From NCBI GenBank assembly GCA_902801465.1, contig CADCIH010000009.1:94314-158313 (forward strand): DNA of 64,000 bases. The letters are read 5' to 3'. Below, piece after piece: positions 393 to 61,379 of the stretch (the first letter of the stretch is position 1; every line of letters begins with the position of its first letter). This DNA comes from an uncultured Bacteroidia bacterium (GTDB taxonomy: Bacteria; Bacteroidota; Bacteroidia; Bacteroidales; F082). Position numbers and translations under genes: made by a program. A model generated the notes under the pieces. That model did no database searches, was not told where the DNA came from, and saw only the letters and a list, made by a program, of their open reading frames with translations.

Positions 393-578
393 ATGCAACT
401 GTTATTCATCGGCACCACTGAAATCATCCTCATCGTATTTGTTGTATTACTGCTGTTCGGCGGTCGGAAGATTCCGGAGATGATGCGCGGTCTTGGAAAA
501 GGCGTAAAGAGCTTTAAAGATGGCGTGAACGGTAAGGACGAGGAAACGGAGAACGGAGAACGAAAAACGGAAAACTAA
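393..578 (+). CDS. tatA: Sec-independent protein translocase subunit TatA/TatE
   Basis: This 61-residue protein has one N-terminal membrane helix (TEIILIVFVVLLLFGGRKIP) followed by an amphipathic helix (EMMRGLGKGVKSFKDG), the standard TatA layout; TatA forms the twin-arginine translocation pore in the inner membrane. The FGG..IPE hinge is present. I start it at the ATG at 393, because upstream in-frame sequence belongs to the divergent GH97 leader. The last dozen residues ([11 protein letters not shown]) are encoded by an interspersed heptanucleotide repeat, so the C-terminal tail is repeat-derived. This tail is variable in the family, so function is probably unaffected. No tatC is nearby. 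Confidence 0.88.
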   Translation: MQLLFIGTTEIILIVFVVLLLFGGRKIPEMMRGLGKGVKSFKDGVNGKDEETENGERKTEN

Positions 579-610
579 AAACTTTCCACTTTCCACTTTC
601 CGTTTTCAAC
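542..610. repeat. Heptad palindromic repeat, copy 1 (tatA tail to pheS end)
   Basis: Units of the GGAAAAC/GGAGAAC type on the left face units of the TTTCCAC/TTTTCCG type on the right, forming an inverted repeat. The left arm encodes the end of TatA and contains its stop. The right arm ends just before the pheS stop codon. It may act as a bidirectional terminator between the convergent genes. Confidence 0.8.
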
Positions 611-1642
611 TTAACTCAACTCGAACTGTTCCAGGAACTTTAGGTCGTTCTCAAAGAACAAACGCAAGTCGTTGATGCCGTATTTGAGCATGGCAATACG
701 CTCCACGCCCATTCCGAAAGCGAATCCTGTGTATTTCTCAGGATCGATGCCGCTGGCAATCAAGATGTTGGGGTCGCACATGCCGCAACCCAGTATTTCC
801 ACCCAGCCCGTATGCTTGCAGATATTGCAGCCTGCACCTCCGCAGATGTTGCATGAGATGTCCATCTCCGCCGAGGTCTCGGTGAAGGGGAAGTAGGAGG
901 GACGGAAACGCACTTTGGTGCCTTCGCCGAAGAACTCCTGCACGAAGTGGTACAGGGTCTGCTTCAGGTCGGCAAACGACACGTTCTCGTCGATATAAAG
1001 GCCTTCGATCTGATGGAAGATACAGTGGGCGCGGGCCGAGATGGCTTCATTGCGGAACACGCGTCCAGGGGCTATGATGCGGATGGGCGGTTGTTTCTTT
1101 TCCATGGCCCTGACCTGCACACTCGAGGTATGTGTGCGAAGTAGCACGTCGGTGGGCTTGTTCTCGTTAGGGTCCTTCTCGATGAAGAAGGTGTCCTGCA
1201 TGTCACGTGCCGGATGGTCCAGGGCGAAGTTCAAGGCGGTGAACACGTGGTAATCGTCCTCAATCTCGGGACCCTCGGCGATGGTGAAGCCGAGATGTTC
1301 GAAAATCTCATTAATGTCGCGACGCACCACCGACAGAGGATGGCGTGAGCCACGCATCTCGCCGGCAGGCATGGTCATGTCGAAACCGGCATCGGAGGTG
1401 CTTTGGGTCTCGAAACGCTCCAGCTGTTCCTCCACCTTGGCGGTGACGGCGTTCTTCAGCTCGTTGAGCATCATGCCCATCTCCTTGCGGAGCTCGGGGG
1501 CGACGGTCTTAAAATCGGCGAACAAGGCAGGGATGACACCCTTCTTGCTCAGATACTTGATACGGAACTCTTCCAAAGCCTCCTTGCTCTCGGCCTGGAA
1601 GTCCTTCACTTCGTGAAGTATTTGTTCAATCTTCTCTTTCAT
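611..1642 (-). CDS. pheS: Phenylalanine--tRNA ligase alpha subunit
   Basis: This 343-residue protein is full length for bacterial PheS, which with PheT charges tRNA-Phe in an alpha2-beta2 complex. An N-terminal coiled-coil arm (about 1-85) precedes the class II aminoacyl-tRNA synthetase core. Motif 1 lies around HPLSVVRRDINEIFEHLGF, motif 2 contains RVFRNEAISARAHCIFHQIE, and motif 3 is GFAFGMGVERIAML. A cysteine cluster (CNICGGAGCNIC) precedes GWVEILGCGM, as in many bacterial PheS. pheT is not adjacent. The gene is followed closely on its upstream side by the cyclophilin gene, 9 nt away, suggesting cotranscription. Confidence 0.97.
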   Translation of the reverse strand: MKEKIEQILHEVKDFQAESKEALEEFRIKYLSKKGVIPALFADFKTVAPELRKEMGMMLNELKNAVTAKVEEQLERFETQSTSDAGFDMTMPAGEMRGSRHPLSVVRRDINEIFEHLGFTIAEGPEIEDDYHVFTALNFALDHPARDMQDTFFIEKDPNENKPTDVLLRTHTSSVQVRAMEKKQPPIRIIAPGRVFRNEAISARAHCIFHQIEGLYIDENVSFADLKQTLYHFVQEFFGEGTKVRFRPSYFPFTETSAEMDISCNICGGAGCNICKHTGWVEILGCGMCDPNILIASGIDPEKYTGFAFGMGVERIAMLKYGINDLRLFFENDLKFLEQFELS

Positions 1643-1651
1643 GGAAAAAAA

Positions 1652-6137: not shown

Positions 6138-6468
6138 TCTTTCGTATGGATTTTAACCGACGAGCGAAAACCGTGTCACGTTGGGCGGTAATCATATCAT
6201 AACGGGTTTGCATTGATAACAAAGGCTCTGCATCAATGTCCAAAGCGGCACCGATGAGCAAGGCCATTTCTGTATTCAGTGTGCGTTTGCCGTTGAGCAC
6301 TTCGTTCAATTGAGTATAGGAAACACCTATTTCTTCAGCTAACGCTCTTTGTGAAATGCCGCGATATTCTATTTCATCCTTGATTACCTCGCCGGGATGA
6401 GTCGGAATAAAAGGATTCATTTTATTTGCTTCTGTGGTGTTCATTTGTTCCTCAAACAAAACTTTCAT
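6121..6468 (-). CDS. higA: HigA-type XRE antitoxin/transcriptional regulator (orphan)
   Basis: The 115-residue protein carries the HigA signature HPGEVIKDEIEYRGISQRAL followed by a helix-turn-helix (ALAEEIGVSYTQLNEVLNGK), about residues 24-78, with a short C-terminal tail. HigA proteins bind their own promoter and neutralise a HigB mRNA-cleaving toxin encoded next to them. No HigB-like ORF is visible on either side: upstream is the glnA promoter region and downstream only a short unidentified ORF. It may therefore be a solitary regulator or the survivor of a broken module. The ATG at 6468 is taken from its distance to the promoter; a shorter start at MNPF is possible. Confidence 0.82.
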   Translation of the reverse strand: MKVLFEEQMNTTEANKMNPFIPTHPGEVIKDEIEYRGISQRALAEEIGVSYTQLNEVLNGKRTLNTEMALLIGAALDIDAEPLLSMQTRYDMITAQRDTVFARRLKSIRKIAAVL

Positions 6469-6487
6469 GTGTTATCTTTTTTCACCG

Positions 6488-6495
6488 CAAAAATA
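6488..6495 (-). promoter_or_regulatory. Promoter -7 element (higA-type gene)
   Basis: It reads TATTTTTG on the minus strand, 19 nt before the ATG at 6468. Confidence 0.45.
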
Positions 6496-6553
6496 CAAAC
6501 TTTTTTCAAATATTCACAAAAAAGTGAATGTAAATTTCAAAAAATGAAAAAAC

Positions 6554-6584
6554 TTGATTATTCCCAGAATAATCCCTATCTTTG
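6554..6584 (+). promoter_or_regulatory. glnA promoter (-33 and -7 elements)
   Basis: TTG at 6554-6556 and TATCTTTG at 6577-6584 are separated by 20 nt, the preferred Bacteroidota spacing. The element falls inside a longer in-frame reading frame, so it argues that glnA starts at 6625 and not at the upstream ATG at 6544. Confidence 0.65.
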
Positions 6585-6624
6585 CCCTCCCAATATTGAA
6601 ACAACAATCCTAAAAAATATCGTA

Positions 6625-8136
6625 ATGGATCAACGCATTGCAATGAACCCCAACCTGCTGGTGCAGTATCTGCAAAAACCAGCAGCTGAATTTACTCGCG
6701 CCGACATCATCCGCTACTGCGAGGAAAACGAAATCGAATTCGTGAATTTCCACTATTGTGGATGGGACGGCAAACTCAAAACCCTCAATTTTGTCATCCA
6801 TAGCGCCGAACACCTGGAGAACATCCTCTCCGCTGGCGAGCGTGTCGATGGCTCCAGCCTCTTCCCCTTCATCGAAGCCGGAAAGAGCGACCTCTATGTG
6901 GTGCCGAAATACCGCACCGCCTTCCGTAACCCCTTCGCCGAGGTGCCTACCCTCGACATCCTCTGCTCGTTCTACAACCGTGACGGCGAGCCCTTCGAGA
7001 GCTCACCGGAGTACATCCTCCGCAAGGCCCATCAGGTCTTCAAGAAGACCACAGGTCTCGAGATGCAGACCATGGGCGAGCTGGAATACTACATCATCGC
7101 CGATGACGAACAGATCTACGAAGTGCCTGACCAGCGTGGCTACCACGAGAGCGCCCCGTTCAACAAGTTCACCGAATACCGTGTGGAGGCCATGCGCCTC
7201 ATCGCCCAGGCCGGTGGCTTGATCAAATACGGTCACTCCGAGGTGGGTAACTTCACCCACGAAGGCAAGATCTACGAACAGAATGAAATCGAGTTCCTGC
7301 CCACCAACATCGAAGACGCCGCCGACCAGTTGGTCGTGGCCAAGTGGATCATGCGCCAGCTGGCTTACCAGTATGGCGTGGTGCTGACCTTCGCCCCGAA
7401 GATCACTGTGGGCAAAGCCGGTTCCGGTATGCACGTCCACTGCAAGTTCACAAGAAACGGCAAGAGCGTGATGGTGGAAAAAGGCGAGCTCAGCGACTAT
7501 GGCAAGAAGGCCATCGCCGGCTACATGGATGCCGGTACCTCACTGCCTGCCTTCGGTAACCCCAACCCGCTGTCGTTCCTCCGTCTGGTGCCCCATCAGG
7601 AAGCCCCGACCTCGTTGTGCTGGTCGTACAGCAACCGCAGCGCCTTGGTGCGTGTGCCGCTGGGCTGGATCAACAATGGCAAGGACATGGTGGCCGACTG
7701 CAACCCGATGGAGAAGAAGTCGAACCGCGACTTCAGCGACAAGCAGACCTTCGAATGGCGTGCCTCCGACGGCTGCGCCGACATGTACCTGCTGATGGCT
7801 GCCCTCTGCGCCGCCGCCCGTCACGGCTTCGAGATGCCTAACGCCCTTGAGGTGGCCGAGAAGACCTACGTCGGCCTCGGCGTGAACATCCACGACGCCA
7901 AGAACAAGAAGGTGCAGGAAGCCCTCGAACAGCTGCCCGACAGCTGCGTGGCCGCCGCCAAGGAACTCAAGAAGGACCGTGAGATCTACACCGCCAAAGG
8001 CGTGTTCTCCGATGCCATCATCGATTACATGATCAAGTTCCTCAGTGACTTCAAGGATGCCAACCTCCGCAAGGAACTCGGCAACGACACCGAGAAGATC
8101 ATGAAACTCGTGAATGACAATATCCACGTTGGATAG
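6625..8136 (+). CDS. glnA: Glutamine synthetase (type I fold)
   Basis: The 503-residue enzyme makes glutamine from glutamate, ammonia and ATP and is central to nitrogen assimilation. An N-terminal beta-grasp domain (about 20-110) is followed by the catalytic domain. Visible motifs include the metal ligands in GELEYYI, FTHEGKIYEQNEIEF, the ATP-binding histidine region GSGMHVHCKF, and FEWRASDGCADMYL near the end. The sequence is unlike the long type III enzymes and slightly longer than classical 470-residue GSI. Codon use is strongly biased to C-ending codons, consistent with high expression. The start at 6625 is set by the promoter at 6554-6584. Confidence 0.94.
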   Translation: MDQRIAMNPNLLVQYLQKPAAEFTRADIIRYCEENEIEFVNFHYCGWDGKLKTLNFVIHSAEHLENILSAGERVDGSSLFPFIEAGKSDLYVVPKYRTAFRNPFAEVPTLDILCSFYNRDGEPFESSPEYILRKAHQVFKKTTGLEMQTMGELEYYIIADDEQIYEVPDQRGYHESAPFNKFTEYRVEAMRLIAQAGGLIKYGHSEVGNFTHEGKIYEQNEIEFLPTNIEDAADQLVVAKWIMRQLAYQYGVVLTFAPKITVGKAGSGMHVHCKFTRNGKSVMVEKGELSDYGKKAIAGYMDAGTSLPAFGNPNPLSFLRLVPHQEAPTSLCWSYSNRSALVRVPLGWINNGKDMVADCNPMEKKSNRDFSDKQTFEWRASDGCADMYLLMAALCAAARHGFEMPNALEVAEKTYVGLGVNIHDAKNKKVQEALEQLPDSCVAAAKELKKDREIYTAKGVFSDAIIDYMIKFLSDFKDANLRKELGNDTEKIMKLVNDNIHVG

Positions 8137-8195
8137 TGGAAAGATGAAAGTGGAAAGTGGAGAGTTTTCCACTTTCCACTCTCCACTTTCCACTT
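8137..8195. repeat. Heptad palindromic repeat, copy 2 (between convergent genes)
   Basis: GTGGAAA-type units face TTTCCAC-type units, forming a long hairpin exactly between the glnA stop and the LytTR gene stop. The left end reads TAGTGGAAAG, with the glnA stop codon merging into the repeat, as happens with other copies. It probably serves as a bidirectional transcription barrier. Confidence 0.8.
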
Positions 8196-9000
8196 ATAAA
8201 ATCGCTGCAATCTGGTCGTAATAGTTCTTACTGACCGGAATGCGGGCAGTATTAGGCACATCCAGAATAGCATAGGTGAAGTCCTTCTCTTTTTGGAGGA
8301 CTTCAACTCTGTTTTTGTTGACGAAATAGGAACGATGACAGCGGATTAATCCGTTTTTGGCGCAAAGATCTTCAATGCGTTTCATCGAACTGCGCAAAAG
8401 GTAACTGGTGATCTTGCCCTCGTCGAGGTAATAGATGCGCAAGTAGTTTTCGTCCGACTGGATGTAAAGGATGGAAGCCTGAGCCACAATGAGTCTCACG
8501 TTTCCACGCTCGTCCATGAAACGAATCTTCTCACCGAAAGCCAACCGTCCCGCATTGTCGATGTCCTCCTCCTTCTCCAAAATGGTGAAATGCTGGTATA
8601 AAATGAGGTATGGCGCGACCATGGCCATTGCCAAATATACCATTGAATAGCCGAAAAACATGAAATATGCATCGGTCCTGTGGGTGGAAAGCCAGAGATA
8701 CAAAGCGCTGAAGCCAGAGCAAAACAGAACCTCAAACAAACACATGAACCAGTATTGGCGCTGTGTCGGCATGGTCTTGCGACTGACGAAAATCATGGGA
8801 AGCCTCGTGGCAAGCAACACCCCAAGGATGATACAAAAGATCATCACAATATGGAATGAATACCCTCCGAATGCAATATCGTAGCTTTTAAAGGCGAAAG
8901 GGCAAAACAACAACAGCAAGCCAAGCGCAAACAGCGGGATTCCGATGATGTGGCCCCAAAAGGCATTGAGCGAAAAGATGTTTTTCGGCGGTTGTTTCAT
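8194..9000 (-). CDS. Membrane-anchored LytTR DNA-binding regulator
   Basis: The 268-residue protein has about four N-terminal membrane helices (roughly 15-140) and a C-terminal LytTR DNA-binding domain (about 165-268). The domain shows ILYIQSDENYLRIYYLDEG, YLLRSSMKRIEDLC and the diagnostic IRCHRSYFVN. LytTR proteins bind direct repeats and regulate surface and stress genes; a membrane-tethered form without receiver domain presumably senses an envelope signal. It is the last gene of the leftward acpP-fabF-rnc-IPExxxVDY series and starts 6 nt after the preceding gene. Target genes are unknown. Confidence 0.88.
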   Translation of the reverse strand: MKQPPKNIFSLNAFWGHIIGIPLFALGLLLLFCPFAFKSYDIAFGGYSFHIVMIFCIILGVLLATRLPMIFVSRKTMPTQRQYWFMCLFEVLFCSGFSALYLWLSTHRTDAYFMFFGYSMVYLAMAMVAPYLILYQHFTILEKEEDIDNAGRLAFGEKIRFMDERGNVRLIVAQASILYIQSDENYLRIYYLDEGKITSYLLRSSMKRIEDLCAKNGLIRCHRSYFVNKNRVEVLQKEKDFTYAILDVPNTARIPVSKNYYDQIAAIL

Positions 9001-10225: not shown

Positions 10226-11473
10226 TTAAAGGGTGTATTTCTTGAAGAGGAGCGAGGTGTTCTGACCGCCGAAGCCGAAGGCGTTGCTCATGGCGTAGCG
10301 CAGTTCACGTTGACGTGCCTTGTTGAAGGTGAAGTCGAGTTCGGGGTCGATTTGTGGATCGTCCTCAAAGTGGTTGATGGTGGGGGGAACGATGCCGTCT
10401 CGCAATGCCATGATGGTGGCGATGGCCTCCACGGCACCAGTGCCTCCGAGCAGGTGTCCTGTCATCGACTTGGTGGAGTTGAGGCTGATGTTTTTGGCAT
10501 GGTCTCCAAACAGTTTCTTGATGGCGCCCACTTCGGCTAGGTCGCCTTGCGGAGTGGACGTGCCATGGGTGTTGATATGGTCGATCTCGGTGAGGTCGAT
10601 GCCGGCGTCCTTGATGGCGCGTTCCATGCTAAGGCAGGCGCCGTAGCCTTCAGGATGCGGGGCGGTGATGTGATAGGCGTCGCCCGACATGCCTACGCCG
10701 ACGAGCTCGGCATAGATGTCGGCGCCACGTTGCAAGGCGTGCTCCAGCTCTTCCATCACGACGCAACCGCCGCCTTCGCCCATCACGAAGCCGTCGCGAC
10801 CTTTGTCGAAAGGCCTCGAGGCAGTCAACGGGTCGTCGTTGCGCAGCGAGAGGGCATGCATGGCGTTGAATCCACCGATGCCAGCCTCGCAGATGCCAGC
10901 CTCGGCACCACCAGCCACCACCGCCACGGCCTTGCCGTAACGGATAAGGTCGAAAGCAGCCGCGATGGCGTGCGATGATGAGGCGCATGCCGACACAGTG
11001 GCGAAGTTGGGTCCCCTGAATCCGTGACGGATCGAGATCACCCCTGCCGGGATGTTCAAGATCATCTTCGGGATGTAATAGGGACTGAAACGGGGCACGC
11101 CATCACCTTTGGAGTGCTCCATCACTTCATTGTAAAAATGGGTGACACCGCCAATGCCGGCAGTGAGTACAACACCGACCTCGTCGAAGTTGGTGTTCAC
11201 CGGAGTGAGATGAGAGTTCTCAATGGCCTCTTCCGCCGCCACAATGTCGAACTGCGCATACAAGTCGTGCTTGCGCACATCTTTGCGGTCGAAGAAATCC
11301 AAAGGATCGTAATCCTTGACCTCGGCGGCGAAATGGGTCTTGTAGTTGGTGTGGTCGAAATGAGTAATCTCACCCACGCCGTTTTTCCCACTGACTAAGC
11401 CTTTCCAAAAGTCCTTAACAGTGTTTCCAACAGGCGTGATGGCCCCAAGGCCGGTGACTACTACTCTTTTCAT
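10226..11473 (-). CDS. fabF: Beta-ketoacyl-ACP synthase II
   Basis: The 415-residue condensing enzyme elongates acyl-ACP with malonyl-ACP in fatty acid synthesis. The thiolase-fold triad is complete: Cys in TVSACASSSHAI, His in NTHGTSTPQGD and His in SMTGHLLGGTGAVEA. N-terminal MKRVVVTGLGAITPVGN is typical. It is downstream of acpP, separated by 92 nt that contain a hairpin-forming repeat, and upstream of rnc. Confidence 0.97.
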   Translation of the reverse strand: MKRVVVTGLGAITPVGNTVKDFWKGLVSGKNGVGEITHFDHTNYKTHFAAEVKDYDPLDFFDRKDVRKHDLYAQFDIVAAEEAIENSHLTPVNTNFDEVGVVLTAGIGGVTHFYNEVMEHSKGDGVPRFSPYYIPKMILNIPAGVISIRHGFRGPNFATVSACASSSHAIAAAFDLIRYGKAVAVVAGGAEAGICEAGIGGFNAMHALSLRNDDPLTASRPFDKGRDGFVMGEGGGCVVMEELEHALQRGADIYAELVGVGMSGDAYHITAPHPEGYGACLSMERAIKDAGIDLTEIDHINTHGTSTPQGDLAEVGAIKKLFGDHAKNISLNSTKSMTGHLLGGTGAVEAIATIMALRDGIVPPTINHFEDDPQIDPELDFTFNKARQRELRYAMSNAFGFGGQNTSLLFKKYTL

Positions 11474-11497
11474 TGTACTAGGTGTTAAAAATTTTAA

Positions 11498-11553
11498 GAG
11501 TCAGAAGTCAGGAGACATGCCTTTCGGCTAAGTCTTCTGTCTTCTGACTCCTG
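11498..11553. repeat. Second-family palindromic repeat (AGTCAGAAGTCAGGAG type) between acpP and fabF
   Basis: GAGTCAGAAGTCAGGAGAC at 11498-11516 is followed by a complementary arm GTCTTCTGTCTTCTGACTCC at 11532-11551. It sits inside the acpP-fabF intergenic space, where a strong hairpin could change the acpP to fabF expression ratio. A related single-armed copy lies before pfkA's stop at 22777-22806. Confidence 0.7.
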
Positions 11554-11565
11554 TTTTCTTAATAA

Positions 11566-11808
11566 TTATTCGTTCTTTTGTTGTTCTTCGATCAAACGGA
11601 TCACATCACCAACGGTGACAATGTTTTCCTGCTGGTCGTCCGGAATGGCGATACCGAACTTCTTTTCGAAGTCGAGCATCAGCTCAACAGTGTCCAATGA
11701 GTCAGCACCAAGGTCGTTGGTGAAACTGGCATCCATAGTGACTTCTGATTCGTTAACGCCCAGCTTTTCGGCAATCATGGGCACAATTTGTTCTGCAATA
11801 GTTGACAT
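11566..11808 (-). CDS. acpP: Acyl carrier protein
   Basis: This 80-residue acidic protein carries growing acyl chains on a phosphopantetheine arm attached to the Ser in [12 protein letters not shown]. The sequence [17 protein letters not shown] is a normal ACP start, so I use the ATG at 11808 and not the in-frame Met three codons earlier. It heads the leftward fabF-rnc gene series and has its own good promoter. Confidence 0.96.
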
Positions 11809-11860
11809 AGTTTTCAAATTTTTGATTAAAAATAAAATCTCTCGTTTTCAAAATATCTGG

Positions 11861-11892
11861 CAAAGGTACGACAATTTTTATATATACTCCAA
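11861..11892 (-). promoter_or_regulatory. acpP promoter (-33 and -7 elements)
   Basis: On the minus strand TTTG (ending at 11890) and TACCTTTG (11868-11861) are about 21 nt apart. This matches Bacteroidota consensus and lies 52 nt before the acpP start. Confidence 0.6.
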
Positions 11893-11935
11893 ATTTTTCG
11901 GATTTTTTCCTAATTTTACACCAAAAATAACACCT

Positions 11936-14452
11936 ATGGACCAACCAGTCAAAAAGCTTTTTCTTCTTGATGCCTATGCTTTGATTTACAGGGCATTCTT
12001 TGCGATGAGCAAGCGTCCGGCCATCAACTCTAAAGGCCTGAACACCTCCGCGGTGATGGGATTTCTGAATACCTTGTATGATGTGTTGCGCAACGAAAAG
12101 CCCACCCATATCGGCGTGGCCTTTGACCTCCATGGCACTACCGTGCGTGCCCAGGAATTTTCCGAATACAAAGCCAACCGTGAAGCCATGCCCGACGACC
12201 TGAGGGCTTCGATACCTTATATTATAAGGCTGATTGAGGGCTTCAATATCCCGGTTTACGCCGCCGAAGGCTACGAAGCCGACGATGTCATCGGGACCCT
12301 TTCACGCAAAGCGGAACAAGAAGGCTTCATCACTTACATGATGACCCCCGACAAGGACTTCGGACAACTGGTCACCGACAAGGTGTTTATTTATAAACCC
12401 GCCAAGTTCGGCGCCCCGGCACAGGTGGTCGGTCCAAAGGAAGTCTGTGAGAAATACGGAATTGCCAAACCTTCCCAAGTGATAGATATCCTCGGGCTCT
12501 GGGGCGATGCCTCCGACAACATCCCAGGCATCCCGGGCATCGGCGAGAAAAACGCCTCCCTTCTGATTGGCAAATATGGCAGCGTGGAAGAGGTGATTGC
12601 CCACGCCGACGAACTCAAAGGAAAACAACAGGAAAACGTCCGCAACTTTGCCGAACAAGGCCTGATGTCGAAACATCTCGCCACCATTATGCTCGACGCC
12701 CCAGTGGATTTCAACGCCGAGGAACTGGAACTCAACGAACCAAACGTCCCGGCATTGCTCGAGTTGTTCGACGAATTGGAGTTCAGGACGTTCAAGCAGC
12801 GGTTTGTGAGAGACTATGGGGTAGTGGAAAGTGGAAAGTGGAAAACGGAAAACGGAGAGTTTTCCACTTTCCGTTCTCCGTTCTCCGTTTTCCACTCTCT
12901 CGTTCTTTCCCAGGATGAATTCCGCTGGGAATCGCATCGCGCCGAGATTGAGAATCCGGAAATCATCAAAGTGGGTTATAACCTGAAGCCCATCCTCGCA
13001 GGGCTGCGAAAAAAAGGCATTACCCCTCAAGGACCCCTCTTTGACGTGATGATCGCCCATTACCTTATCGAACCGGAACAACGCCATACGCTGGAGATAC
13101 TCTCCGAGGTCTATCTCCATAAGGAGTTCAATTCCATGGGCAACTTGTGGAACCCCGACGAGGGCGATGACATCGTGCGTGAGCTGTTCCAAGTGTTCCA
13201 ACCTATGCTGAAACAGAATGGCCTTGAGCGGCTGTTCTACGATATCGAGATGCCCCTCGTCCACGTGCTTGGCGTGATGGAGGAGAACGGGGTGAAGATC
13301 GACAGCCAGAACCTACATGCCATTAGCGAGGAATTTGGCGTCCATATACATCAACTGGAAGAAAACATCTACGAGATGGCCGGACTGCGATTCAATATCG
13401 CATCGCCTAAACAGCTAGGCGAGGTGCTCTTCGAACGCATGCAACTCGATGCCAAGGCCAAAAAGACCCGAACCGGTCAGTATGCCACCGGTGAAGAAGT
13501 CCTGCAAAAGCTGGCTGGAAAACATCCCATCATTAATGCGATTTTGGAGTACCGTTCCTACACGAAGCTGAAATCCACCTATTTGGACGCATTGCCGGCG
13601 CTGATCAACCCAAGAGACGGTCTGATCCATACCTCATTCAATCAGGCGGTCACCGCTACAGGACGTCTCAGCTCGAACAACCCCAACCTGCAAAACATCC
13701 CCGTGCGCACCGATAAGGGGCGGGAGATACGCCGTGCCTTCGTGCCACGCAGTCCCGAATATACCCTCATGGCTGCCGATTACTCGCAGATCGAATTGCG
13801 CATCATCGCTCATCTGAGCGGAGATCCGGCAATGATAGCCGACTTTCAGCTGGGGCATGACATCCATGCCGCCACAGCCGCCAAGGTGTTTCACGTGCCG
13901 CTCGACCAAGTCACCAAGGAGCAACGTAGCCGCGCCAAGGCGGTCAACTTCGGCATCATCTACGGCATGTCGGCTTTCGGCCTTGCCGAACGCATGGAAA
14001 TCTCCCGCGGCGAAGCTTCCGACATCATCAAGAAATACTTCGAGGAATACGCAGGCATCAAGGAGTATATGAACCGCAGCATCGCTCTCGCCAAAGAACG
14101 GGGTTACGCCGAGACCATCCTTGGGCGCCGACGCTACCTGCGTGATATTAATGCCGACAATGCCACCGTGCGTAACTTCGCCGAACGCAACGCCATCAAT
14201 GCGCCTATTCAAGGCTCCTCCGCCGATATGATAAAAATCGCCATGATCGGCATCCAAAGCGAACTGGAACGACTCCATCTGAAGTCAAAGATGATCCTGC
14301 AAGTCCACGACGAACTGGTCTTCGATGCACATCTCGATGAACTCGATGTATTAAAATCCTTGGTGAACGACAAAATGGTAAACGCCCTGCCGCTCTCAGT
14401 CCCGGTAATCGTGGAGATTAATACGGGCGAGAACTGGCTGGAAGCTCATTAA
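11936..14452 (+). CDS. polA: DNA polymerase I, proofreading domain degenerate and carrying an in-frame repeat
   Basis: The 838-residue protein starts at MDQPVKKLFLLDAYALIYRA. The 5'-3' exonuclease domain (about 1-290) has TPDKDFGQLV and the helix-hairpin-helix IPGIPGIGEKNA. The polymerase domain (about 435-838) has motif A AADYSQIELRIIAHLSGD, motif B RSRAKAVNFGIIYGMSAFG and motif C QVHDELVFD, so synthesis should be intact. The middle 3'-5' exonuclease region is only about 140 residues and lacks the first DxE motif; in its place (about 296-321) is a repeat-encoded peptide. The second motif is also altered (GYNLKPIL, no Asp). Proofreading is therefore probably absent. Bacteroides homologues are typically over 900 residues. 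The 3' end overlaps the convergent neighbour by 4 nt. Confidence 0.94.
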   Translation: MDQPVKKLFLLDAYALIYRAFFAMSKRPAINSKGLNTSAVMGFLNTLYDVLRNEKPTHIGVAFDLHGTTVRAQEFSEYKANREAMPDDLRASIPYIIRLIEGFNIPVYAAEGYEADDVIGTLSRKAEQEGFITYMMTPDKDFGQLVTDKVFIYKPAKFGAPAQVVGPKEVCEKYGIAKPSQVIDILGLWGDASDNIPGIPGIGEKNASLLIGKYGSVEEVIAHADELKGKQQENVRNFAEQGLMSKHLATIMLDAPVDFNAEELELNEPNVPALLELFDELEFRTFKQRFVRDYGVVESGKWKTENGEFSTFRSPFSVFHSLVLSQDEFRWESHRAEIENPEIIKVGYNLKPILAGLRKKGITPQGPLFDVMIAHYLIEPEQRHTLEILSEVYLHKEFNSMGNLWNPDEGDDIVRELFQVFQPMLKQNGLERLFYDIEMPLVHVLGVMEENGVKIDSQNLHAISEEFGVHIHQLEENIYEMAGLRFNIASPKQLGEVLFERMQLDAKAKKTRTGQYATGEEVLQKLAGKHPIINAILEYRSYTKLKSTYLDALPALINPRDGLIHTSFNQAVTATGRLSSNNPNLQNIPVRTDKGREIRRAFVPRSPEYTLMAADYSQIELRIIAHLSGDPAMIADFQLGHDIHAATAAKVFHVPLDQVTKEQRSRAKAVNFGIIYGMSAFGLAERMEISRGEASDIIKKYFEEYAGIKEYMNRSIALAKERGYAETILGRRRYLRDINADNATVRNFAERNAINAPIQGSSADMIKIAMIGIQSELERLHLKSKMILQVHDELVFDAHLDELDVLKSLVNDKMVNALPLSVPVIVEINTGENWLEAH
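12822..12896. repeat. Heptad palindromic repeat, copy 3 (in frame inside polA)
   Basis: Three GTGGAAA units and two GGAAAAC-type units are followed by the complementary TTTCCAC, TTCTCCG and TTTTCCAC units. The whole is read through in the polA frame as VESGKWK-, TENGE- and SPFSVF-like blocks. The left end again reads TAGTGGAAAG, here out of phase so that it gives no stop. Confidence 0.9.
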
Positions 14453-18675: not shown

Positions 18676-20710
18676 CCAAAAACACAGCGTCGCCAAAGGT
18701 GTTATTAATGTGCCCTCCTTCCACGTCCCTGATGGACGAGGGGAATTGGATGGTGATGCGTTTGCTCCTGAACAAAGGCCTCCTGACGGTTACTGTCGTG
18801 GCCTCCTCAACCAGCTCCAGTCCCGTCTCGGCATCAAACCATCTGACAAGGTACTCGGTGCCTCGGGGTTGGTTTTTGATGGGCAATACGATGCTGTTGT
18901 CGTCGGAACTCGGTGCCGGACGCTTGGCGGGGTTCAGTGTATAGACGTATCCGTTGGAATCGAACACCCCATCATCGACAAAATGCCCGTTATTTCCTTT
19001 ACGATCGGTTAAATGACGAAGCGACTGGTAGCTAAACACTGTATCCTGACACCATCCGACAAGGGTGTCGTAGTCGGCATTCACCAAATAATAGGTCTCC
19101 AGATTGTTCGGGAACACCAACGATCTGCCCCGCTCGCTGCCCGTGGTTTGTGCAGTGAACGAATCCGAAAGCACCGGAAGACTATGCATGAAGACCGTCA
19201 CCGGACGGAAAAGGCCGTACCAGTTCTTTTTGTCAAGCACCTCCCAATACCAGAAAGAAGCAGGGCCCATCGAGCCGGAAAAAGCTGACGACCAAAGGGA
19301 ATTGTGCAGGTCGATACCCCAAGGGTCCTTGTCCTCATATTTTGGCCTTGTGCCACCCTGTCCGAAAGCAAACTCACCCATGAAAAAAGGCTTGTCAGGA
19401 TAGTCGCGTCTCGCTTTCTTTGTTTCCTTGTAAAGGACATTGGAAAACTGCTCGCTCGACTTCGCTTTCTGGATGTTCTGATAGTTGTGGTCTTGGACGA
19501 TGTCCAGGTTATAAAACATTTTTCTAAGGGTATCAATGTTGCCCGAGCCCAACGAAGTGGAGATGGGATGGCGATAGGGGTCGAGGGTATGGATGTAATC
19601 CACCATTTGGATATGCCATCTGACCATGTCTTCCTGGATTTCCCCGGAGATGTCCTCTCCTTCTGACATATTGGCAAGTTCGTTCCATAGTTCCCAACAA
19701 AGTACATTGGTTGCATATCCCCAACGAGCCACGATGTAACGGATCATGTTCTTGGTGATTCTTATCGCCTGTGGGTCGGAAAAGAAATCGTAGCGTGAGG
19801 GCAAGCCCAAAATGACATTGAAAGGATTGTTGGTCCAATCGCTGGGTCTGGCTGTCTTTCCATTGGTTCCAGTAGGTGTTCCGCTTTTATGAATGAAATC
19901 CCTGAAGTTGAAAATACACATCATCAAAGCGATGTTGTGCTCTTTGGCGTTTTCAACGATATAGTCGAGTTCAGCCGCGTCTTTTTGGTTCAGTGTGTTG
20001 TCAAAATACATCTTTGTCTTGCCGTCATCGGTCCCAGCATGTTCCGGACCGTAAAGCGACAAAAACTGGTAGCGGTTAAGCCATATACGCACATAGTTGG
20101 CATTGCCCGAAAGCGACTCGAAATACTTCTTGTAATCATAGATGCCATAAGGCTTTTGGTACTTGTCGTGGTCAGCGGCTTCATACCACGGTACGTTGGG
20201 GCCAACAGGGTAGAAGGAGTGGCTTTTTCGCTGGCTGTTCACGAAGGCTTCACGCTTCAGGTACTTACTGTTGGCGATCTGGATGAAACCTTCGGCATCT
20301 TTGCTTTGACAATTGAACGACAACTCTTTGCTTATCCGTTCACCGTCTTTGTCGATGGCGTGAATCACAAAGGTCCAGCGTCCAGGCGTATCAGGCGTGA
20401 AACGAATCTTCCAAAGGTCACCTTCACGCCTGTATTGCGACACTTCGTAGTTTTGTTTTTTGGTGAGAATGTAATCTTCGTAATAAAAGCCGATGGAGCG
20501 AACACTACGACCGTTGGGAGAGATGAAGTCGGCATACACGTCAATCACTTCGGGGTCGTATGGGTTATCGTATGTCCCCAGAAGGAAGGAGATTTCGTAT
20601 TTGTCGTAAACACCTACCGTGGAAGGGACGTTGGTCACAAGGATGGCTGTCTGGCTGAAGCCCATGGTTACAAAGGCCATTAGAGACAGCAGCAGTAAGG
20701 CTTTTCTCAT
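18656..20710 (-). CDS. Exported DUF5060 + GH5-like glycoside hydrolase
   Basis: The 684-residue protein has a signal peptide (MRKALLLLSLMAFVTMGFSQ), an immunoglobulin-like DUF5060 domain (about 22-130) and a TIM-barrel of the GH5/clan A kind. The acid/base Glu is in CWELWNEL near residue 343 and the likely nucleophile Glu is in FFMGEFAFGQ near 445. Such proteins cleave beta-linked plant or host polysaccharides; the substrate cannot be assigned. A beta-rich C-terminal domain (about 560-684) follows. No SusC/SusD pair is adjacent. Its ATG overlaps the stop of the L,D-transpeptidase gene by one base. Confidence 0.82.
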   Translation of the reverse strand: MRKALLLLSLMAFVTMGFSQTAILVTNVPSTVGVYDKYEISFLLGTYDNPYDPEVIDVYADFISPNGRSVRSIGFYYEDYILTKKQNYEVSQYRREGDLWKIRFTPDTPGRWTFVIHAIDKDGERISKELSFNCQSKDAEGFIQIANSKYLKREAFVNSQRKSHSFYPVGPNVPWYEAADHDKYQKPYGIYDYKKYFESLSGNANYVRIWLNRYQFLSLYGPEHAGTDDGKTKMYFDNTLNQKDAAELDYIVENAKEHNIALMMCIFNFRDFIHKSGTPTGTNGKTARPSDWTNNPFNVILGLPSRYDFFSDPQAIRITKNMIRYIVARWGYATNVLCWELWNELANMSEGEDISGEIQEDMVRWHIQMVDYIHTLDPYRHPISTSLGSGNIDTLRKMFYNLDIVQDHNYQNIQKAKSSEQFSNVLYKETKKARRDYPDKPFFMGEFAFGQGGTRPKYEDKDPWGIDLHNSLWSSAFSGSMGPASFWYWEVLDKKNWYGLFRPVTVFMHSLPVLSDSFTAQTTGSERGRSLVFPNNLETYYLVNADYDTLVGWCQDTVFSYQSLRHLTDRKGNNGHFVDDGVFDSNGYVYTLNPAKRPAPSSDDNSIVLPIKNQPRGTEYLVRWFDAETGLELVEEATTVTVRRPLFRSKRITIQFPSSIRDVEGGHINNTFGDAVFLVTKKSL

Positions 20711-54686: not shown

Positions 54687-55156
54687 AGATACTCCTGCTC
54701 GTCATCGGAAAAACCGACGAGGATTACCTCGTGACCGGCATCAAGAAATATGTCGGACGCCTAGGCCATTACGCCTCGTTCGAGCTCAAGGAGATCCCCG
54801 ATATTCGTAACCGCAAGACGCTGAGCGAGGACCAACAGAAAAAGGCTGAGAGCTTCTTGCTATTGCAACAGTTGCAACCCTCCGATCAGGTGGTTTTGTT
54901 GGATGAAAGAGGAAAACAATACACTTCTGTTGAATTTTCAGAAATTATTAAAAAATGGACTGCTTCGGGAACAAAGCGCATCGTGTTCATCATAGGTGGC
55001 CCTTACGGCTTCGCACAAGAGGTATACGACCGCGCCGACGCCCAGATGTCGCTCTCACCGATGACCTTCTCGCATCAGATGGTGCGATTAATATTCGTTG
55101 AGCAGTTATATAGAGCATTTACGATTTTAAAAAACGAACCCTATCATCATAATTAA
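54683..55156 (+). CDS. rlmH: 23S rRNA (pseudouridine1915-N3)-methyltransferase
   Basis: The 157-residue SPOUT enzyme methylates pseudouridine 1915 of 23S rRNA in complete ribosomes. Motifs are VVLLDERGKQYTSVEFSEII, FIIGGPYGFAQEVYDRAD and the C-terminal knot LSPMTFSHQMVRLIFVEQLYRA. Full length. It overlaps the DUF4340 gene by 4 nt and is followed directly by a tandem hairpin repeat. Confidence 0.96.
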   Translation: MKILLLVIGKTDEDYLVTGIKKYVGRLGHYASFELKEIPDIRNRKTLSEDQQKKAESFLLLQQLQPSDQVVLLDERGKQYTSVEFSEIIKKWTASGTKRIVFIIGGPYGFAQEVYDRADAQMSLSPMTFSHQMVRLIFVEQLYRAFTILKNEPYHHN

Positions 55157-55371
55157 CAACCCCAAAACGCTCCGCACCCCATCGGGGTGCCACATCGGTA
55201 AAACAAACAAAAACAACCCAAAACGCTCCGCACCCCATCGGGGTGCCACATCGGTAAAACAAACAAAAACAACCCCAAAACGCTCCGCACCCCATCGGGG
55301 TGCCACATCGGTAAAAAAACAAAAACAACCCCAAACGCTCCGCACCCCATCGGGGTGCCACATCGGTAGAA
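55156..55371. repeat. Four tandem ~56-bp hairpin repeats
   Basis: Four copies with periods of 56, 57 and 55 bp follow the rlmH stop. Each contains CGCTCC and the perfect hairpin GCACCCC-ATC-GGGGTGC followed by CACATCGGTA and an A/C-rich spacer (AAACAAACAAAAACAACC). Only the spacer length varies. The minus strand has short open frames of the WHPDGVRSV kind in this repeat, which I take as chance. The last copy ends 1 nt before the ATG of the GIN-domain gene. Confidence 0.95.
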
Positions 55372-55372
55372 A

Positions 55373-56206
55373 ATGAAAAGGATATTGTATTTATTAATCG
55401 TTGTTCTATTCACGCTGTCCTCCTGCCGTGACAAGGACCTCGACATGACCTTGATGAGCAAGACCATCTACGAAGGCGCTGTGATCAACGAAATCACCGC
55501 TTCCGACGCATGGCATGTCACCGTCATACAAGATGAAAACACCTTTGTGGAACTGGAATATTCCGCTTTCTTGGAAGAATACCTTCGGGTTACGAATTCG
55601 GATTCGGAATTGAAAATCGGTTTCAGCAGAAGCCTTAACATCCCGTCCAATACCGTGATGAACGCCACTGTCCATACGCCTTCGTTACAAAAGGTCCATC
55701 TCTCCGAAGCGGTCAGTGCCGTCTTGGATGGCCATTTTCCCGAGGCTTCCTTGACGATGGAGCTGGAAGATGCCGCAACTTGCAAAGGCGGGGATTTCAG
55801 TGGTAGGGCTGACGTGAAGCTGAGTTCCGCTTCGACGCTGGTCGACTGCTACTTCCATGGCCCATTGTGCAACATCGAACTCGATGACGCTTCCGTCTTT
55901 AAAGGCTGGTTCACCGAAGACTCTTTGTTTGTTAAATTGAATGGCGCTTCACGGCTGACCACCTATGGTGGTGTTGTGGGTGGCGCCAATGTGGAAGTCA
56001 GTGAAGCAAGTTCCCTGAACATGCTGCAGACTTATATCAGCAGAATGATGTTCATCGTGGTTCAAGATGCCTCCGAGGCTTCGGTCGCCGTTACAAGACC
56101 CGCCATCTTGGAAGGCTTTGTGATGAACGCCTCTACGCTCCATTATCAAGGGAACCCCATCTTAGACGTCGCCTGCGACGCCACCTCCACCCTCAGTCCC
56201 TTATAG
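55373..56206 (+). CDS. GIN-domain (DUF2807) lipoprotein
   Basis: The 277-residue protein has a lipoprotein signal (LFTLSSC) and the head-GIN/DUF2807 beta-helix pattern: ASDAWHVTVIQDENTFVELE, SEAVSAVLDG, and repeating DAATCKGG, SASTLVDC, DDASVFKG, NGASRLTT strands. Such proteins are surface or periplasmic and their function is unknown. The start follows the tandem hairpin repeat immediately, so its ribosome-binding region is repeat-derived. Its stop TAG runs into a heptad repeat. Confidence 0.87.
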   Translation: MKRILYLLIVVLFTLSSCRDKDLDMTLMSKTIYEGAVINEITASDAWHVTVIQDENTFVELEYSAFLEEYLRVTNSDSELKIGFSRSLNIPSNTVMNATVHTPSLQKVHLSEAVSAVLDGHFPEASLTMELEDAATCKGGDFSGRADVKLSSASTLVDCYFHGPLCNIELDDASVFKGWFTEDSLFVKLNGASRLTTYGGVVGGANVEVSEASSLNMLQTYISRMMFIVVQDASEASVAVTRPAILEGFVMNASTLHYQGNPILDVACDATSTLSPL

Positions 56207-56236
56207 TTTTCCACTTTCCACTTTCAACTTTCCACT
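56207..56236. repeat. Heptad repeat, copy 6 (single arm before HMG-CoA reductase)
   Basis: Four TTTCCAC/TTTCAAC-type units occupy all 33 nt between the GIN gene's TAG and the ATG at 56240. No purine-rich ribosome-binding site is left, so the repeat forms the upstream region of the HMG-CoA reductase start. Confidence 0.75.
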
Positions 56237-56239: not shown

Positions 56240-57559
56240 ATGGTCTCCCGCATAAAAAAAGGTTTCTCCAAGCTCCTCAAGGAAGAGAAGCTGAAAGCTA
56301 TTGCCAATTACTTTGAGAATCCCGGCGAGGTTATTAGCCTGCTGAAGAGTTTCTGGCACTCCGACTCACGACAGCAACAGCTGTTCGACGAGTTCAGCGA
56401 GAACACCATTACCAACTACATCATGCCTTATGGCATCTCGCCCAATGTAACCATTAATGGGAAAGACTATATCGTCCCGATGGTCATCGAGGAGAGTTCG
56501 GTGGTGGCTGCCGCTTCTGCCGCCGCCAAGTTCTGGGGCGAGCGAGGAGGGTTTCACGCCGAAGTGCCCGATGTGCGTAAGGTGGGTCAGGTGCACTTTG
56601 GATGGAAAGGCAGTTTGGAACTTCTAGAAAATCTCTTCCCTGCCATCAAACAGCGTCTGCTGAATGACACCGACACCATCACCGCCAACATGAAGAAACG
56701 CGGAGGCGGCATCCTTGACATACAGCTGATCGACTATACCGACAAGATTCCCGATTACTATCAACTTAGGGTGGAGTTCAACACCTGCGACTCGATGGGT
56801 GCCAACTTCATCAATACCGTGCTCGAACAGTTTGGGCATAGCTTGCAGGACTTCTTCGCTGAGCGTAACGAACTGCCCGAAGAGCTCCGTCAGTGTGAGA
56901 TCATCATGACCATCCTCTCCAACAACACGCCCGACTGTCGGGTGAAGGTGTGGGTGGAATGTCCCGTGGAACAACTGGACGGCATCGATGAGCATCTCAC
57001 AGGTGCCGAGTTTGCCATCAAATTCAAGAAAGCCGTTGACATCGCCCATATCGACACCGACCGTGCAACCACACACAACAAAGGTATCTACAACGGCATC
57101 GATGCCGTGATTTTGGCTACTGGCAACGACTTCCGTGCCGTGGAGGCCGCGGGTCACACCTATGCCTCGCGCAACGGCCACTACGAAAGCCTCTCCACCG
57201 TCACCATCACCGACGGCATCTTCCACTTCGAGCTGGAGGTGCCTATGGCCCTCGGCACCGTGGGTGGCCTCACCAGCCTGCACCCCCTGGCCAAGAAATC
57301 GCTCGAGCTGCTGGGCAACCCCACTGCCCCCGAGCTGATGATGATTGCCGCTACCATGGGCCTGGCCAACAACTTCTCAGCCGTGCGTTCCCTGACCACC
57401 AAAGGCATCCAAGCCGGGCACATGAAGATGCACCTCAACAACATCCTCAACCAGCTGCAAGCCTCCGACGAGGACAAACGGCAGGCCCGAGAGTACTTTA
57501 AGGACAAGACCGTCTCCTACGCTGCCGTGGAACAATTCCTCAAAAGCCTCCATCAATGA
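56240..57559 (+). CDS. mvaA: Hydroxymethylglutaryl-CoA reductase, degradative-type (class II) sequence
   Basis: The 439-residue enzyme interconverts HMG-CoA and mevalonate. Motifs are PMVIEESSVVAAASAAAKFW (catalytic Glu), DSMGANFINT, the Asn/Asp-rich NKGIYNGIDAVILATGNDFR (catalytic Lys and Asp nearby), and GTVGG with GIQAGHMKMHLNN (catalytic His) at the end. Although named degradative, class II enzymes serve biosynthesis in many bacteria. The downstream mevalonate genes, beginning with a 4-nt overlap, imply that here. It is the first gene of the isoprenoid operon. Confidence 0.94.
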   Translation: MVSRIKKGFSKLLKEEKLKAIANYFENPGEVISLLKSFWHSDSRQQQLFDEFSENTITNYIMPYGISPNVTINGKDYIVPMVIEESSVVAAASAAAKFWGERGGFHAEVPDVRKVGQVHFGWKGSLELLENLFPAIKQRLLNDTDTITANMKKRGGGILDIQLIDYTDKIPDYYQLRVEFNTCDSMGANFINTVLEQFGHSLQDFFAERNELPEELRQCEIIMTILSNNTPDCRVKVWVECPVEQLDGIDEHLTGAEFAIKFKKAVDIAHIDTDRATTHNKGIYNGIDAVILATGNDFRAVEAAGHTYASRNGHYESLSTVTITDGIFHFELEVPMALGTVGGLTSLHPLAKKSLELLGNPTAPELMMIAATMGLANNFSAVRSLTTKGIQAGHMKMHLNNILNQLQASDEDKRQAREYFKDKTVSYAAVEQFLKSLHQ

Positions 57560-59501: not shown

Positions 59502-59504
59502 ACC

Positions 59505-60392
59505 ATGAGCGAGCGGATTTACCATAGCAAAGTCATCCTCTTCGGCGAGTATTCCATGATATTCGACGCCACCGCCTTGATGGTGCCGCTGAACCGTTTC
59601 TCAGCCCAGTGGCGCAACGCTTCGCACCTGTCGCCCGAAGCTGCCGCTTCCAATGCCAGCTTGAAACGTTTTGCCGACTACCTCTCCTCACTCGATGAGG
59701 CCAAGAACATCCTTGACATTCAGAGGTTTGACCACGAACTGAACCACAACCTCTTCCTCGACTCCGACGTGCCCTCAGGCTATGGTCTCGGTAGCTCAGG
59801 GGTGCTGGTTGCCGCCGTTTATGACCGCTATGCGCCATGCAAATCCGATGATCTTTTGCAGTTGAAGACCCTCTTCGGCAAAATGGAGAGCTTCTTCCAT
59901 GGCAGCAGTTCAGGCATCGACCCCCTGCAATGCTATATCGGAAAGCCTTTCCGCATCAGCGCCGAAGGGGTGACTCTGCTCCCCGACGACTTCATCCCTG
60001 ACGATATTCATGTGTTTCTTGCCGATACCGGCAAAAAAAGCAATACCAAGCCCTTGGTGCAATACTTCAAAACCAAACGCGAGGATCCGAGCTATCTGGT
60101 TGGTTTCCAAACCAATTACGTTCCATGCGTCACTGCCTGCATCGAGCATCTGATCCAAGGGGAGAAGGCGGCATTCTTCGCCTCGCTTCGCCAGCTTACC
60201 CAAGGCCAACTGAAGTTCCTCCGCCCGATGATTACCGACAACAGCATCGACCTCTTTCTCGAGCAGCCCGACTTCAACCTCGGTTTCAAGATCTCCGGCT
60301 CGGGTGGTGGCGGCTATGTGTTGGGCTTTACCGATGACATTAATAAAACCAAGGCCTTCATGGAAGGCTATGACATCATTTGGGTATCATGA
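59505..60392 (+). CDS. mvk: Mevalonate kinase
   Basis: The 295-residue GHMP kinase has KVILFGEYSMIFDATALMVP, the ATP loop DVPSGYGLGSSGVLVAAVYD, FFHGSSSGIDPLQCYIGKP with the catalytic Asp, and KISGSGGGGYVLGF at the C-terminal motif. It phosphorylates mevalonate. Together with the preceding three genes it completes the route from HMG-CoA to isopentenyl diphosphate; HMG-CoA synthase and the isomerase are outside the window. Confidence 0.9.
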   Translation: MSERIYHSKVILFGEYSMIFDATALMVPLNRFSAQWRNASHLSPEAAASNASLKRFADYLSSLDEAKNILDIQRFDHELNHNLFLDSDVPSGYGLGSSGVLVAAVYDRYAPCKSDDLLQLKTLFGKMESFFHGSSSGIDPLQCYIGKPFRISAEGVTLLPDDFIPDDIHVFLADTGKKSNTKPLVQYFKTKREDPSYLVGFQTNYVPCVTACIEHLIQGEKAAFFASLRQLTQGQLKFLRPMITDNSIDLFLEQPDFNLGFKISGSGGGGYVLGFTDDINKTKAFMEGYDIIWVS

Positions 60393-60925
60393 GTTGGATT
60401 CGCAACATAGAACAACGCATCGAGAAGCTGCTGATTACGGTCATCGACTTCTTCTATCCGCCCTTTAGGAAGCTGATGCCTTTGGATCTGTTTCGTTACG
60501 GATGCTGCGGGGGACTGAATTTAGCCCTTGAATGGGTGTTATATTACATTTTCTATCACTATGTGTTCCACGCAGAGGTGTTCGACTTGGGTTTCGTTGC
60601 CTTCACCCCCCATATCGCCGCCTTTGTGTTCAAGTTCCCCATCACATTTCTAACAGGCTTTTGGATGGCACGGCATATCAGTTTCAGAGGTTCAACACTA
60701 CGGGGAAGGACCCAGATAGTCCGCTACCTACTGGTGACCTTGGGCAACATTCTTATCAATTATCTAGGCCTGAAACTCTTTGTCGAAGTCTTCCAATGGT
60801 GGCCGACGGTATCTTATGTGATTATTTCTATTATCTGTGTGACTTTCAGTTATTTAACTAATAAATACTTCTCTTTCAAGAAAAACAAAGCGAACGATGG
60901 ATACTCTTCAGTTGATCAAGAATAA
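60389..60925 (+). CDS. GtrA family membrane protein
   Basis: The 178-residue protein has four membrane helices and the GtrA pattern ([46 protein letters not shown] at the end). GtrA proteins help move lipid-linked sugars across the membrane in O-antigen or polysaccharide modification. The ATG at 60389 overlaps the mevalonate kinase stop (ATGA). Its tail overlaps the rfaE2 start by 29 nt. Placement after isoprenoid genes fits a link to polyprenyl-phosphate carriers. Confidence 0.85.
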
Positions 60926-61379
60926 GATATATTCTTCCGTTTTCCGTTCTCCGTTTTCCGTTTTCCATGCCCAAGGCTCGAAAGTGGTCTTCACCAATGG
61001 CTGTTTCGACATCCTGCACCGTGGTCATGTGGAGTATTTGGCGAAAGCTGCGGACATGGGTGACGTGTTGGTGGTGGGATTGAATACCGATGCATCGGTC
61101 AGGCGCTTGAAAGGGGAGAGCCGACCCGTCAATAATCAAGAGGCCCGGGCCCTGGTGCTGGCTTCGTTGAGCTTTGTGGATGCCGTTGTTTTGTTTGACG
61201 AGGACACTCCATACGAGTTAATCAAGGCCGTTCGTCCCGATGTCCTGGTGAAAGGCGCCGACTACAAACCTGAAGAAATTGTCGGTTACGACATCGTGAC
61301 TTCTTACGGCGGCAAAGTGGAGGTGGTCGATTTAGTGGAAGGTTACTCCACAACCCAACTTTTATCTCTTATCTCTTAA
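60897..61379 (+). CDS. rfaE2: D-glycero-beta-D-manno-heptose 1-phosphate adenylyltransferase, N-terminus partly repeat-derived
   Basis: The 160-residue nucleotidyltransferase activates heptose for lipopolysaccharide core synthesis. Motifs are [19 protein letters not shown] (HxGH), [33 protein letters not shown] and a C-terminal YSTTQLL. In relatives the residues before VVFTNGCF form a conserved helix segment. Here residues about 13-24 ([11 protein letters not shown]) are encoded by a heptad repeat, replacing that segment. The start ATG lies inside gtrA, and a later start would remove the repeat but no good ATG with proper context is seen before the motif. Confidence 0.92.
60935..60966. repeat. 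Heptad repeat, copy 7 (in frame inside rfaE2, single arm)
   Basis: Units of TTTTCCG/TTCTCCG type over 32 nt, read through as FRSPFSVF. No complementary arm follows. Confidence 0.85.

Follow-up and report, generated by a model that had tools for sequence, protein, structure and literature searches.

Dispersed heptanucleotide arrays between and inside the genes of an uncultured Bacteroidales bacterium, and their counterparts in related genomes

Heptad arrays in the window and in the source genome

The stretch of DNA analysed here, called the window, comprises 64,000 nucleotides of contig CADCIH010000009.1 of an uncultured Bacteroidia bacterium of the order Bacteroidales. Between and inside its genes lie short arrays of a 7-bp unit (heptad), some of which form inverted pairs predicted to fold as RNA hairpins. 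An earlier note on this DNA had listed seven such copies, and all of them proved to be real and to lie exactly where it had placed them. A regular expression written for heptad arrays found 11 arms in the window, every one within these seven places, and gave one match in total in 20 first-order Markov sequences of the window. The copies at 542, 8137, 12822 and 22541 are two-armed and those at 21311, 56207 and 60935 are one-armed. The two-armed copies gave RNA folding z scores relative to shuffled sequences of -3.1 (542-608), -6.4 (8137), -7.5 (12822) and -7.8 (22541), and the one-armed copies of the window folded no better than shuffles. The arrays and the genes around them are the following:

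542-610, no strand assigned: two-armed hairpin, a GGARAAC arm and then an ACTTTCC/GTTTTCA arm, covering the last codons and the stop of a short gene (tatA-like by eye) that is convergent with pheS (611-1642, minus strand)
8137-8195, no strand assigned: two-armed GTGGAAA hairpin between the convergent genes for glutamine synthetase (6397-8136, plus) and a LytTR regulator (8194-9000, minus)
12822-12896, no strand assigned: two-armed array in frame in polA (11615-14452, plus), in the linker from the 5'-3' exonuclease to the RNase-H-like/polymerase part
21311-21339, minus: one-armed array with its purine strand on the mRNA strand, filling the gap from the stop of 21340-22104 (minus) to the start of an L,D-transpeptidase gene (20710-21309, minus)
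22541-22613, no strand assigned: two-armed array in frame in the RNase HI gene (22111-22776, minus), in the linker from the N-terminal (Cauli_VI) to the RNase H domain
56207-56236, plus: one-armed array with its pyrimidine strand on the mRNA, between a DUF2807 gene and the start of the HMG-CoA reductase gene (56240-57559, plus)
60935-60966, plus: one-armed array in frame at the N-terminus of the HldE (rfaE domain II) adenylyltransferase (60897-61379, plus)
61357-61390, no strand assigned: weak period-7 array between the convergent open reading frames (ORFs) 60897-61379 (plus) and 61390-63495 (minus), found by a low-threshold detector alone

The last of these is one of three further weak arrays that a looser detector found in the window (22777-22802, 26840-26871 and 61357-61390). 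As the same detector also yielded two arrays at lag 6 and one at lag 9, these extra arrays are individually weak; three relatives (G025, G049 and G013) have arrays mapping to the place of 61357-61390. The left border TAGTGGAAAG, which had been said to be shared by several copies, is present in two of the seven (8137 and 12822).

The window was examined together with the rest of its contig (C9) and 60 kb of a second contig (C4), in all 296,186 bases of the source genome. This sample holds 33 elements, a density that is biased upward because the C4 part (12 of the 33) was picked after many matches had been listed there. At lag 7 it contains 34 runs, as against 0-2 at any one of lags 4-6 and 8-12; among periods 4-12, period 7 stands alone. 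Over the whole source genome there are 83 matches to two successive GTGGAAA units at one mismatch at most (2 for the reversed pattern as control), 398 to two GGARAAC units (control 2) and 223 exact matches to three GGARARY units (control 0). These matches overlap, so that the true number of arrays is smaller; the genome-wide search nevertheless returned hundreds of repeat matches, not a few.

The dialect of the window consists of GGARA followed by AC or GT (also AT or GC). Other dialects of the source or related genomes are GGAAT with GC, TA or TC, AGAAT with TT or TA, AGAAG with AC or TC, ARAGG with TT or TG, GGAGT with TA or GA, AAAAG with AT or TT, and AGTTAGC. Their plan is alike, a mostly fixed core being joined to variable bases, and several arrays mix dialects on a single 7-nt lattice (for example G073 at L194:17777). 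The units had been described as free of stop codons in every frame, which is true of the two heptads named at that time (GGAAAAC and GTGGAAA) but not of the family: T is the first base in 36 of 325 units of the arms, which begin with TGA, and dialects with stop codons such as GGAATTA and AGAATTT occur in the source genome. Absence of stops is a filter acting on the arrays that genes can hold.

All 16 two-armed elements of the sample have a purine arm followed by a pyrimidine arm, and where two arms are neighbours at a distance of up to 40 bp, samples from three genomes show this order 15 times and the opposite order never. The 7-nt phase continues across the centre of the element (spacing 2 mod 7 in 18 of 20). 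Exactly four units are present in 39 of the 75 arms with at least three units. In the 75 arms listed with their flanks no constant ends were seen, apart from a degenerate outer unit.

A crude heuristic ORF caller that overestimates coding (94%) placed 18 of the 33 elements in ORFs, 5 in convergent gaps, 10 in co-directional gaps and none in divergent gaps. Thus 0 of the 15 elements outside ORFs are in divergent gaps, as against 39 divergent pairs among 227 ORF pairs, although the number of elements is small. Four of the six two-armed elements outside ORFs lie between convergent ORFs. The hosts inside the window are polA and the genes for RNase HI and the HldE domain II protein. The remaining 15 in-ORF elements occupy 13 ORFs outside the window, nine of which pass a Pfam cut-off: a peptidyl-arginine-deiminase-like secreted protein, CysQ (inositol monophosphatase family), TopA, Vsr, EamA, a U32 peptidase and an MBOAT protein with two arrays each, a DcuC carrier and the C-terminal part of RNase R. 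Among the other four, one matches DltB below the cut-off, one has a weak match below it, one has none and one (L216:3724-4986) was left out. Some arrays fall outside the matched domain, for example after the Vsr domain, or close to an uncertain start (EamA). Those in polA, topA, cysQ and the RNase HI and HldE genes are read in frame, and the peptide encoded by the PolA array is exemplified by VESGKWKTENGEFSTFR. These and other loci bear out the earlier description, in which a mostly palindromic family of 7-bp units is dispersed among and within genes and can be read in frame.

Beyond the source genome, a search of 392 genomes of the order with the GGARARY triple, the only dialect searched at this level, found it in 37, sporadically and mostly in few copies, with higher counts in some other genera (117 in G387 and 58 in G287). 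Within the genus the exact triple occurs in 18 of 99 genomes and exceeds 60 matches in five; among related species the count extends from 0 (G079) to 238 (G041). The reversed control was itself high in some relatives (214 in G065, against 73 for the pattern, and also in G013, G032, G038, G002 and G073). We take these counts to reflect other dialects because GGTGA-type arrays appear in stretches of some such relatives; the control matches themselves were not located.

Orthologous sites in related species

The seven sites of the window were compared with those of the 14 relatives having the best polA matches (76-81% DNA identity). After 18 site-relative pairs had been dropped, 80 of 98 could be aligned, and heptad arrays were present in 42 of these 80 orthologous gaps, in 18 cases in the dialect of the window and in 24 in another. 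In ten of the 24 arrays in another dialect, both strands contain one or more units of that dialect. As controls, 32 junctions without an array in the window gave arrays in 12 of 231 gaps, nine of them concentrated at two junctions, and points inside genes gave 0 of 493; the control gaps were padded by 45 bp per side and the sites by 10 bp, which favours the control. The strict dialect counter overlooks short arrays, two of which were seen by eye at site 542 (G079 and G025), and it counted a mixed polA locus of G041 as the window's own dialect. At two junctions that are free of arrays in the window, AGAAG or AGAATT arrays occur in relatives: in four at 11473-11615 and in five at 55156-55373.

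At site 542, 12 of the 14 relatives could be aligned and eight have arrays, in four dialects. Arrays were found at site 21311 in 7 of 13 alignable relatives, with identical polarity in all, and at site 56207 in three of the five alignable (out of 14), with polarity kept. At site 60935 they occur in 9 of 12 alignable relatives. Over these last three sites the relatives have 15 one-armed arrays, which agree in polarity with the copy of the window without exception; 11 of them are in another dialect. Four additional arrays at 60935 are two-armed. The RNase HI linker (22541) carries arrays in 5 of 14 relatives, in two dialects. The polA linker has heptads in 4 of 14 by the strict counter. Both linkers bear heptads less frequently than the other sites, and in several relatives they hold other palindromes or no repeat. 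The cysQ site, outside the window, is likewise shared: by eye, the ten aligned relatives comprise six with heptads, one with a short remnant, two with a CGTCATTGCGAG palindrome and one with neither.

Site 8137 could be aligned in 10 of 14 relatives, and six of them have heptad hairpins, in three dialects. It is empty in G038, where the two stop codons overlap with nothing between them, near-empty in G090 and degenerate in G013. In G079 (L193) the place is taken by a GC-rich hairpin, AAAATTTAGGGCCGC-AACC-GCGGCCCTAAATTTT, which resembles an ordinary bidirectional terminator.

Inside genes, native sequence is found at some of the sites. The HldE array of the window encodes 12 residues where three relatives (G026, G065 and G090) retain a native segment. 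The topA array is private to the source genome among the genomes seen: the conserved native segment is kept in all 12 aligned relatives (two more gave no topA match), and, as read from the translation, about 22 array-encoded residues stand in frame in its place. In these alignments both arrays stand in place of native codons, which argues against plain insertion. No target-site duplication was seen, in a comparison without strain-level empty sites. The earlier expectation had set mobile insertions with empty orthologous sites against ordinary sequence fixed in all relatives, and the result fell between the two: copies are many and some sites are empty or native, yet most sites of the window are common to several relatives with their sequence changed.

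Comparison of the two close relatives G025 and G073 (85.6% identity over 111.6 kb aligned) gave 19 sites at which one or both carry an array. Array length differs by a single unit at two of these sites and by two units at another, and in one case the loops of the two species are exact reverse complements of each other. Some arrays are of the same length; elsewhere one species has another dialect, another palindrome or no clear array. In the polA linker of G041, a nested CGTCATTGCGAG element lies between a left arm of GGARAAC and a right arm of GGAGT. G025 shares the start and left junction of this element and has a shorter version of it between two GGAGT arms (the polA locus of G073 was not captured in this comparison). 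The simplest history would be that one arm of the G041 locus changed its dialect in place.

Possible origin of the arrays and related heptamer repeats

These comparisons point to an ongoing copying process, probably not to ordinary jumping genes. Our best reading of the alignments is that the arrays are kept at semi-fixed, tolerant sites, such as gene 3' ends, convergent or co-directional gaps and protein linkers or loops. The fuller explanation, which we regard as slightly more probable than not, is that dispersed heptanucleotide arrays, often as hairpin-forming inverted pairs, would be maintained by slippage and by template switching both between arms and between distant arrays, under a filter of tolerance. 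Replication slippage in 7-base steps would add or remove units. Intrastrand template switching at the hairpin would copy one arm to the other and flip the loop, so that both arms tend to keep one dialect. Ectopic template switching or gene conversion between arrays would spread the dominant dialect of a genome, overwriting older arrays and sometimes native sequence. Selection would purge arrays that break genes, and inside genes only dialects without stops in the frame used would then persist. A dedicated transposase would not be required, and bidirectional termination may be an additional role of some intergenic hairpins. Copying between sites is favoured because the GGARARY triple spans 0-238 matches among related species, and independent drift would hardly reach the same word.

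A further proposal can be made more tentatively, and it could about as easily prove wrong as right: heptad arrays may be a single superfamily that maintains itself on a common 7-nt lattice, in which the dominant word of a genome is copied between sites and overwrites an older one where it stands, one arm at a time, at positions that the species have in common. If this were true, it would be a case of concerted evolution among hundreds of tiny dispersed repeats that write in-frame peptides into core enzymes by codon replacement. A clade in which dialects differ at fixed sites makes it possible to see candidate steps in which units are gained, arms copied, loops inverted or dialects overwritten. 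It would also offer a measurable route from non-coding repeats to new peptides in core enzymes, DNA polymerase I and topoisomerase I among them.

Several observations weigh against the copying explanation. The ectopic step was not directly observed, and the chimeric G041 locus is a single case. The excess of 4-unit words common to different arms is only modest (48, against 31.6 +- 6.2 in a within-array shuffle, with 3 of 300 shuffles reaching 48). Simple slippage would give a falling distribution of arm length, not a peak at four units. The complete two-armed array at the natively occupied topA site also fits the arrival of a whole element, and the non-heptad palindromes at the same sites in some relatives could reflect re-insertion at hot spots. 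Moreover the relatives are species and not strains, and some of them (G025 and G073) are close, so that counts over relatives are not independent.

Mobile palindromes of the type of Rickettsia palindromic elements (RPEs) or miniature inverted-repeat transposable elements are a rival explanation. Hairpins of about 60-75 bp, or halves of about 30 bp, would be inserted at hot spots by a transposase acting in trans, with each genome multiplying a family of its own. The preference for arms of four to five units, the complete element at the private topA site, the very uneven GGARARY counts among species of one genus and the use of the sites by other palindrome families all agree with it. We nevertheless consider it unlikely, since constant ends were not found, the native codons of topA and HldE are replaced and not split, the G041 polA locus and other arrays are mosaics of dialects on one lattice, and the polarity of one-armed arrays is the same in 15 of 15 cases across dialects. 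Discrete insertion after the manner of RPEs, with which the earlier note compared this family, is not supported by the 75 arms or by these two genes. Like RPEs the arrays are palindromic, present in many copies and found in frame within protein genes; RPEs, as characterised in the part of PMC10969869 drawn on here, are discrete elements of about 150 bp whose ORF encodes a conserved peptide, whereas the heptad arrays have no fixed consensus or ends, replace codons and show dialect turnover.

Functional hairpins under selection, mainly bidirectional terminators or stabilisers of mRNA 3' ends, whose sequence drifts while the stem stays, seem improbable as a general explanation. They would explain the position of two-armed elements between convergent ORFs, the GC-rich hairpin that replaces heptads at site 8137 in G079, the dialect change that is often common to both arms, and the lack of elements in divergent gaps, a depletion that is weak at n=15. 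More than half of the elements (18 of 33) are nevertheless inside heuristic ORFs, several of them in conserved enzymes, one-armed copies do not fold, and a terminator-pattern scan of 7900-8450 reported two other sites and not the 8137 hairpin. REP-type elements moved by a REP-associated tyrosine transposase (RAYT; Y1_Tnp) are a very improbable source: such genes occur in 70 of the 99 genus genomes, including one in the source genome, but the seven inspected have no array inside 1.2 kb and are not flanked by arrays (the nearest lies at 1,246 bp, and that of the source genome's only gene at 2,553 bp), while G082, G017 and G038 have arrays at window sites and no Y1_Tnp gene was found in their assemblies, which are 73-90% complete and may lack it. 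This origin was rejected, as neither the Y1_Tnp counts in the 99 genomes nor the array distances of these seven genes, most others being uninspected, showed a link.

The arrays belong to the known heptameric inverted-pair repeats, and the closest described kind are the GGGAATC/(GGGANTN)n heptamers of Xanthomonas (Rehm et al. 2015, PMC4692102); the earlier note had known of no description. According to the portions of that report used here, two genomes contain 186 and 183 arrays, with 70 and 75 cases of inverted pairs that are convergent and always have one array per strand; 89-93% are intergenic and 7-8% lie between divergent ORFs. They share with our arrays a 7-bp unit with variable positions, dispersal in many copies, a preference for four units, a single orientation of inverted pairs, proximity to stop codons and conserved positions. 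They were studied as G-quadruplex formers with G-tracts of three, whereas the units GGARAAC and GGARAGT have GG only. Further differences are that our arrays are not predominantly intergenic, with many lying in frame inside enzymes, and that they show several dialects per genome, a change of dialect at conserved sites and replacement of native codons. Dialect turnover could not appear in the Xanthomonas study because one word was followed. The same text states that many bacterial genomes have an excess of heptameric repeats, on which there is little detailed literature, and quotes an explanation that ties the abundance of heptamers to the stretch of DNA in the active site of the polymerase (footprint slippage).

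Two other systems are comparable in part, as far as the sections of the two reports cited here describe them. The TAACTGA heptamers of Beggiatoaceae, Cyanobacteria and a few Bacteroidetes (MacGregor 2015, PMC4679880) are likewise short dispersed arrays, a few of them inside ORFs, and some Bacteroidetes have other heptamers alongside. Unlike the present arrays they are direct repeats, mostly just upstream of start codons in the main genome of that study, where related heptamers are rarely repeated and one indirect repeat stands beside 169 direct sets. The P6b stem of the cyanobacterial tRNA-Leu(UAA) intron has degenerate heptanucleotide repeats of variable copy number with other elements inserted (PMC3488679). 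As in the four two-armed copies of the window that fold, heptads occupy both arms of an RNA hairpin; the likeness does not address common descent, and the P6b repeats belong to one RNA locus in an intron and are not described in that part of the report as a genome-wide set. In searches of open-licence PMC papers no description of heptad dialect turnover at conserved sites was found. The features not found described there are the dialect switch at orthologous sites, the conservation of polarity, the half-and-half locus and the in-frame arrays that replace codons of core enzymes.

Other repeats in polA and at heptad sites

In this clade DNA polymerase I has a 3'-5' exonuclease part much shorter than that of more distant relatives (for example L098 and L100), and the shortened polA linker holds many different repeats. 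One of them is a palindrome family, GCATCCCC....GGGGATGC, giving SASPLGDA-like peptides in frame in polA (L189, L193 and L200, and L283 at about 4828 in G025). Another is the CGTCATTGCGAGGAGCG-type palindrome, which is found nested inside a heptad palindrome in polA and which lies at heptad sites within genes in L192, L194, L195 and L204 (polA), L263 (RNase HI) and L297 and L301 (cysQ). Repeats resembling it are known from other bacteria. Beside polA on contig C12 of G073 (site A:58184) there are about 550 bp with AATTCGCCGTTA-type repeats, at a place where G025 has a short heptad array.

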